Assembly: GCA_902810745.1 (NCBI GenBank)
Contig: CADDYW010000001.1
Location: 124,001-188,000 of the forward strand
Reading direction: 5' to 3'
Length of the DNA: 64,000 nt
Source of the DNA: Chloroflexota bacterium
Lineage (GTDB): Bacteria > Chloroflexota > UBA6077 > FW602-bin22 > CADDYW01
Shown here in pieces: positions 40,272-41,558 of the stretch. The position numbers and the translations under genes are program-made. The notes beneath the pieces are model-generated. The model saw only the letters and a list, made by a program, of their open reading frames with translations. It was not told where the DNA came from and did no database searches. The first letter of the stretch is position 1. The number at the start of each line of letters is the position of its first letter.

Positions 40272-40958
40272 TCAGACGTCGCTACTGACCGCCGTTCGTA
40301 CCGCCTCGACGAATCGCGCCTCGCGCTGCGCCCCTAGAAGCTCGACTTTATCGTTGATCACGATCTTGGGGACACCAGACACCTGGTAACGATCCGATAG
40401 CTCCGGAAACTCGCTCGCTTCGATCACGTCGGCGGTCACCCGCTCGCTCTCGATCGCCATCTCGTGGGCCATCCTGGCCACACCGGGGCAGTACGGTCAG
40501 GTGGGAGTTACGAACACGCGAATGTGGACGTCTTCAGTCAGGTTGTCGAGGTTTGCCCGCGTCGTCTCGGACAGGGACGTCGTTCCTTTCGACAGATCAA
40601 CAATGTCTTGAATGAGTGTCGAGAACTCATTTCCCGCGGGAATCCCCATGAAACGGACTTTCCCCCGTCCCTGTCCGTGAAGCACAATCGTGGGAACAAG
40701 ATCCGCTGTGACGCCCTCGTCCGCGCCAGCCTGCGGCTCCGTTCTAAGATCGTGGACGGTCACTGATAGCTTGGGTGACAGTTCGGCCACCTCGTTGAGA
40801 AGCTGCTCGGTTTCCTCGCAGTAGGGGCACTCGGTCTGGCCGGGAATGGTCAGAAGCGACCGCTTCCGCGTGAACAGCTCCATTGTGACCGGTTCTTGCA
40901 GATTGTCTGAAAAGAAAGCGCGGACCTGATCGGCCACGTTTGCCGACAAGAGCGCCAT
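40272..40958 (-). CDS. Glutaredoxin-like protein disulfide oxidoreductase, probable selenoprotein (in-frame UGA)
   Basis: 228 residues if UGA (40499-40497) is read through; two thioredoxin folds as in archaeal/thermophile PDO, of near-identical length. N-terminal unit has CPYC (44-47, TECPYCEETEQL). The C-terminal unit reads VFVTPT, UGA, PYCPGVARMAHEMA, ending with cis-Pro GVPKIVIN. UGA occupies residue 154, the nucleophilic Cys of CPYC. Homology is uninterrupted and in frame on both sides, and a SECIS-like hairpin follows. Start ATG 40958 is chosen (GGAGG 6 bases upstream; ATG 40982 overlaps the -10). Otherwise it would be a pseudogene or sequencing error. Confidence 0.8.
40464..40481 (-). 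promoter_or_regulatory. SECIS-like hairpin downstream of the UGA
   Basis: Minus strand: stem GTGGCC (40481-40476), loop AGGAT (40475-40471), stem GGCCCAC (40470-40464) with one bulged C. The apical loop begins 22 bases past the UGA and contains the GG of bacterial SECIS loops (E. coli fdhF loop AGGUCU, stem also with one bulge). Confidence 0.55.
40497..40499 (-). other. Candidate selenocysteine codon (UGA)
   Basis: Reads TGA on the minus strand between the Thr of VFVTPT and PYCPG. The conserved family residue here is the first Cys of CPYC. A single-base change from TGC or TGT would give it. Confidence 0.7.
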
Positions 40959-40980
40959 AAAGCACCTCCATCCATGGGAC

Positions 40981-41027: not shown

Positions 41028-41558
41028 ATGTCCGCTCAGCTGTTCAGCCCGTTCGACCGTGTCTTACCGGGGAAGCCGATACCGGAGTTTTCACTGCGCT
41101 CGACGACCAACCAGCGGATCCGCTCTGCCGATCTCATTGGACACCGCCTGGTCATCGTCTTCACCGGGAAACCGGGTGATCGCCGATCCCGTGTCCTGCT
41201 CAGTCGAGTGCGCAGTGCCATCCCGGCGATCGAACAGGAGGGTGGACTGATCCTGGCAGTTGCTCCGGTCGCCGCCGATACCGGATTCATTGCCGAGCCC
41301 GGTACGTCGGTCCCGTTTCCGCTCTTACGTGACGTCGCGTCGCTCGCTCACCGACAATTTGGAGCCGTCGATTGGAGTGGGGAACCGGCTTCCGCGCTCT
41401 TCGTCACGGATCCGTGCCAGCGAGTTATCTTTCGCGCGTTGACCGGGCTGGACGAACCGCTCCCGACAGCAGCGGATATTCTCACCTTCCTGAGAATGGA
41501 TCAGCTCACCTGCCCCACGTGCGGAGCCCTGATCGTCCCGCGCCGAGAAGCCTGGTGA
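41028..41558 (+). CDS. Peroxiredoxin-like thioredoxin-fold protein lacking the peroxidatic Cys
   Basis: 176 aa with AhpC/TSA fold features: KPIPEFSLRSTTNQRIRSAD at the start, LVIVFTGKPGDRRSR where the TPxC peroxidatic Cys should lie, FPLLRDVASLAHRQFGAVDW, and SALFVTDPCQRVIFRAL. No Cys is present in the active-site loop. The C-terminal tail carries LTCPTCGALIVP, a two-Cys knuckle possibly redox- or zinc-active. Divergent from the selenoprotein-like oxidoreductase, 69 bases between starts, suggesting a shared redox context. Function unknown. Confidence 0.75.
   Translation: MSAQLFSPFDRVLPGKPIPEFSLRSTTNQRIRSADLIGHRLVIVFTGKPGDRRSRVLLSRVRSAIPAIEQEGGLILAVAPVAADTGFIAEPGTSVPFPLLRDVASLAHRQFGAVDWSGEPASALFVTDPCQRVIFRALTGLDEPLPTAADILTFLRMDQLTCPTCGALIVPRREAW

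Follow-up and report, generated by a model that had tools for sequence, protein, structure and literature searches.

A very probable selenocysteine at the C-terminal active site of a two-domain protein disulfide oxidoreductase from a Chloroflexota bacterium

A single in-frame TGA splits the C-terminal active site encoded by a protein disulfide oxidoreductase (PDO) gene of a Chloroflexota bacterium, raising the question of whether this codon is a lesion, a true stop or a site of selenocysteine (Sec) insertion. The gene lies in a window of 64,000 nucleotides (assembly GCA_902810745.1, contig CADDYW010000001.1), where its reading frame runs on the minus strand from an ATG at 40958 to a terminator TGA at 40274-40272, with one internal TGA (Table 1). 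The preliminary description had placed this codon, at 40499-40497 on the minus strand, on the first Cys of the C-terminal CPYC, and had given an intact N-terminal CPYC and a length of 228 residues with read-through. All of these statements held on re-examination, codons 44-47 being undamaged, but the 53 residues that it had counted 3' of the TGA are in fact 74, following 153 residues before it. The C-terminal motif reads TPT-U-PYCP, with UPYC spanning residues 154-157. The gene's own terminator is likewise TGA, and the cell must therefore distinguish the two TGAs by context. Taken together, the results below make it very nearly certain that this is a genuine selenoprotein gene, encoding a two-domain PDO of the TIGR02187 or AhpF-N-terminal-like family with Sec at codon 154 (Sec-PDO), and sequence data by themselves could hardly provide stronger evidence for Sec. 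Ordinary annotation would truncate the protein at residue 153, inside the active site.

Table 1. Positions of the Sec-PDO gene, its sequence elements and its divergent neighbour in the window.
Feature	Position	Strand	Description and basis
Sec-PDO coding sequence	40272..40958	-	228 aa when UGA is decoded as Sec; TIGR02187, 249.5 bits, cut-off 185
Ribosome-binding site GGAGGT	40964..40969	-	5 nt upstream of ATG 40958; direct sequence reading
N-terminal CPYC	40818..40829	-	Codons 44-47, both Cys intact; translation and alignment
In-frame TGA	40497..40499	-	Codon 154, predicted Sec at the nucleophilic position of C-terminal UPYC; column carries TGA in 29 genes and a Cys codon in the other 74
Predicted bacterial SECIS hairpin GUG-U-GGCCA-GGA-UGGCC-CAC	40464..40483	-	Fold, conservation beyond synonymous constraint, and covariation
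AhpC/TSA (peroxiredoxin-fold) protein	41028..41558	+	Divergent neighbour; PF00578 match; synteny

With Cys substituted for Sec, the product scored 249.5 bits over residues 7-222 against the NCBIfam model TIGR02187, above the NCBI curated cut-off (185 bits) by which we defined membership; the model carries the name PDO_seleno_TRX, 'protein disulfide oxidoreductase'. Pfam Thioredoxin_3 matched in two stretches, and each of the two thioredoxin folds has a site of its own (CPYC at 44-47 and UPYC at 154-157), as is characteristic of PDOs. The nearest solved structures were the two-domain PDOs 1j08 and 1a8l, followed by 2ywm, 2ayt and 2hls. The Cys-type PDOs among these (1a8l, 1j08, 2ayt and 2hls) have two thioredoxin folds, two CxxC motifs and a length equal to that of Sec-PDO, which differs from them in having Sec for the first Cys of the C-terminal site. 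Structures of the AhpF N-terminal domain ranked behind those of PDOs, at a distance. This domain (1zyn, 1hyu) shows weak similarity to Sec-PDO and shares its two-fold thioredoxin arrangement but, unlike Sec-PDO, has Cys and is joined to a flavin reductase. An identity as AhpF itself was rejected, as the score of 68 bits lay far below the AhpF cut-off of 502.9 and the chain stops after the thioredoxin folds. Bacterial Sec-thioredoxin and Sec-glutaredoxin (UxxC; PMC13188914) resemble Sec-PDO in that the nucleophilic residue of a thioredoxin-fold site is Sec, but they are single-domain proteins and belong to other families.

A nonsense mutation or a sequencing error could account for an in-frame TGA seen in one assembly, making the gene a pseudogene or the true codon TGC or TGT, and the loss of the gene could be made good by a Cys paralogue in this genome (G000:C42). 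We examined homologues at the Sec column. In the bacterium's phylum, 66 of the 201 genomes had a match to the PDO; the 103 sequences that cover the column were the gene itself, its counterparts in the phylum and 60 homologues taken from named genomes. Every one of them had either TGA (29 genes) or a Cys codon (74 genes; TGC in 41 and TGT in 33). The 29 TGA genes, all from this phylum, occur one each in 29 separate genomes, including this one, and each has a single in-frame TGA, always at this column. The nearest relatives with TGA share 67% (G105), 62% (G153) and 56% (G113) identity with Sec-PDO, and TGA forms extend down to 34%. The UGA thus aligns with the catalytic Cys of homologues and recurs as TGA in other species, as is expected of a bacterial selenoprotein. 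That a nonsense mutation would strike precisely this codon by chance had been called unlikely at the outset; with the same column carrying TGA in 29 genomes, we count mutation or error as refuted and give it next to no probability. A TAG flagged in the PDO gene of another genome (G094) proved to be that gene's normal stop. No TGA form was found among homologues in the named collection, which was searched with few peptide patterns and without close relatives; so narrow a search is therefore no proof of absence outside the phylum.

The sequence 3' of the TGA argues further against a lesion. In comparisons with the three nearest relatives, dN over this part was 0.18-0.29 with dS of about 1, changes fell mostly at third codon positions, and conservation after the TGA was at least as high as before it. 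The frame decay downstream that would mark a pseudogene was absent, and the stretch behaves like translated sequence under purifying selection. The same data bear on a programmed truncation, in which UGA would act as a real stop to give a 153-residue product and the C-terminal part, if produced at all, would arise from an internal start. The N-terminal thioredoxin fold has a CPYC to itself and could indeed fold independently. However, conservation in one frame crosses a TGA that splits an active site, the TGA alternates with Cys codons only, and the hairpin described below would have no cause to track it. Truncation is consequently most improbable.

The predicted hairpin lies about 20 nt 3' of the UGA and has a bulged U and the apical loop GGA, and both the fold and the comparative test agree with a bacterial SECIS element, a stem-loop just 3' of the UGA whose small apical loop contains a G. 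The hairpin in the window's own sequence was not extra stable when compared with dinucleotide shuffles (z -0.36), and support for it is therefore comparative. Over the 36 nt after the TGA, the mean folding-energy z was -0.84 in Sec genes and -0.17 in Cys genes overall, but Sec genes did not differ from Cys genes of the same phylum. Because plain folding energy discriminates weakly, we adopted a register-specific helix count, with the register taken from the window's own fold and the expectation from synonymous codon redraws. The 5-bp helix 21-25/29-33 was complete in 20 of the 29 TGA genes against 1.7 expected, a count inflated by shared ancestry; in Cys genes it was near chance (2 of 14, 0.7 expected; 4 of 60, 2.2 expected). 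With the register left free, a SECIS-like hairpin with 5 bp or more was found in 28 of the 29 TGA genes (10.8 expected), and Cys genes again stood at expectation (5 of 14 against 4.9; 17 of 60 against 16.2). The core GCCAGnnTGGC occurred in none of the 74 Cys PDO genes.

Position pair 21-33 of the helix joins two third codon positions. It was paired in 20 of 20 genes, as G-C, G-U, A-U, U-G or C-G, and shuffling gave a mean of 14.3 paired of 20 (p 0.00035, relatedness ignored), showing that the one variable pair of the helix has undergone compensatory changes. The register itself is shifted in some Sec-PDO lineages (L112-L118, L043 and L044), where the helix lies about four bases closer to the UGA. 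Across genes the hairpin tracks the TGA, in agreement with the Sec reading and against a mutated or misread codon; this check went beyond those named in the preliminary description.

Insertion of Sec would require the corresponding machinery, and all four of the genes named for a check in the preliminary description were present in the genome, as is typical of bacteria that make selenoproteins: selA (558 bits), selB (368.7 bits), a tRNA-Sec (selC) with anticodon UCA (69.5 bits, called by ARAGORN as well, as tRNA-SeC(tca)) and selD (389 bits). A single 176-kb contig carries selA, selB and tRNA-Sec, and selD lies on another. The estimated contamination of the assembly is 7.9%; GC content is 63.3% both in the window and in the stretch with selB, and 61.8-66.6% in other pieces. 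The selD gene contains one in-frame TGA, in the context HGAG-U-ACKLGP (G000:C18:56046-56972; L125 about 1531-1533), the usual place of Sec in SelD, and selD therefore looks like another selenoprotein gene of this genome. Both other genomes sampled from the same family (G105 and G153) have selB and tRNA-Sec above cut-off. All 29 genomes with the TGA form have one or the other above cut-off (selB in 27, tRNA-Sec in 25), and the missing cases may be due to incomplete assemblies and a stricter search filter. This co-occurrence is weakly informative, because selB is above cut-off in 158 of the 201 genomes of the phylum.

In principle the UGA could be decoded as Cys or Trp instead of Sec, by a near-cognate or suppressor tRNA, and Cys insertion would preserve function, the column being Cys in all other homologues. 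Such decoding is nevertheless extremely unlikely in a genome with the full sel machinery and a UCA-anticodon tRNA-Sec, in which selD too has an in-frame TGA, the SECIS-type hairpin is present, and UGA doubles as an ordinary stop, that of the Sec-PDO gene included.

We mapped the Sec label on a tree of 100 PDOs, where six changes were needed. Three Cys groups are nested in the main Sec clade, namely G182, six genomes of family f30, and G185; on this midpoint-rooted tree, apparent Sec-to-Cys reversion is the simplest account of them. The Cys gene of G182 (L021) groups as sister to three Sec genes (L022, L024 and L025) from the same genus. It encodes the same ARLA as they do, but by GCT-CGT-CTC versus GCC-AGG-TTG, and these synonymous codons abolish the helix; this gene looks like a recent reversion. 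On balance we favour a history in which Sec was the ancestral and main state of a single PDO clade in this phylum, which saw three or more separate reversions to Cys, with independent gains elsewhere, and in which the hairpin varied in register and was lost synonymously once Cys had returned. The paralogue in the genome under study, on another contig (G000:C42, L120 3470-4150), has Cys (TGT) at the Sec column and 47% identity to Sec-PDO. It adjoins genes for an OsmC-like protein and a response regulator.

The gene order ftsZ, Sec-PDO, AhpC/TSA and PAC2 is kept in both other genomes of the family and was not kept in the order-level relatives that we checked. The AhpC/TSA neighbour lacks Cys where the peroxidatic residue usually lies (FTGKPGDRRSR) and has a C-terminal CPTC; without that Cys, it can be regarded as a possible partner of Sec-PDO only.

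For the insertion step, we infer that SelB with Sec-tRNA(Sec) would bind the predicted hairpin about 20 nt 3' of the UGA, and that Sec would be inserted at codon 154, as the complete machinery and the hairpin suggest, substituting for the nucleophilic Cys in the C-terminal CPYC. In an archaeal PDO that has been studied, thiol transfer takes place mainly at the C-terminal site, and NADPH and thioredoxin reductase reduce peroxiredoxins via this PDO (PMC7465337). By analogy, the likely role of Sec-PDO would be thiol-disulfide exchange, with electrons passing from NADPH through a thioredoxin-reductase-type enzyme and the PDO to peroxiredoxins and other disulfides. Since the C-terminal site is dominant in the archaeal enzyme, Sec at this site should alter the speed and redox behaviour of the enzyme. 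A selenolate would speed the attack on the substrate disulfide, and we infer that Sec-PDO may be a faster disulfide reductase of the archaeal-PDO kind.

The preliminary description had regarded Sec-containing proteins of this type as little described, which is only partly right. A 'Homolog of AhpF, amino-terminal domain' has been listed among bacterial selenoproteins since 2006, from Carboxydothermus and Symbiobacterium (PMC1794560); reviews of 2022 and 2026 link this entry to TIGR02187 with the motif UxxC (PMC9312934, PMC13188914), and Asgard archaea have been added to the holders of the Sec form (PMC13188914). The catalogued family, 'Homolog of AhpF N-terminal domain (Grx-like domain protein)', for example ABB15282.1, shares both TIGR02187 and UxxC with Sec-PDO, and differs from it only in organism and lineage, the exact Sec column presumably matching, to judge from the motif. 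The Sec form of the family is thus on record, as the model name PDO_seleno_TRX also indicates, and the kind of protein is known from 2006 onwards, the Chloroflexota gene being one more member. Our literature searches found no specific report of Sec-PDO in Chloroflexota. The new points are modest and comprise the spread of Sec-PDO in the phylum, the apparent Sec-to-Cys reversions and the loss of the hairpin after one of them. If this history is true, the PDO family would be a clean natural experiment on the swapping of Sec and Cys and on the benefit of Sec in a thioredoxin-fold enzyme, and its paired Sec and Cys relatives, including both types of PDO in this very genome, would allow a direct test of what Sec contributes.
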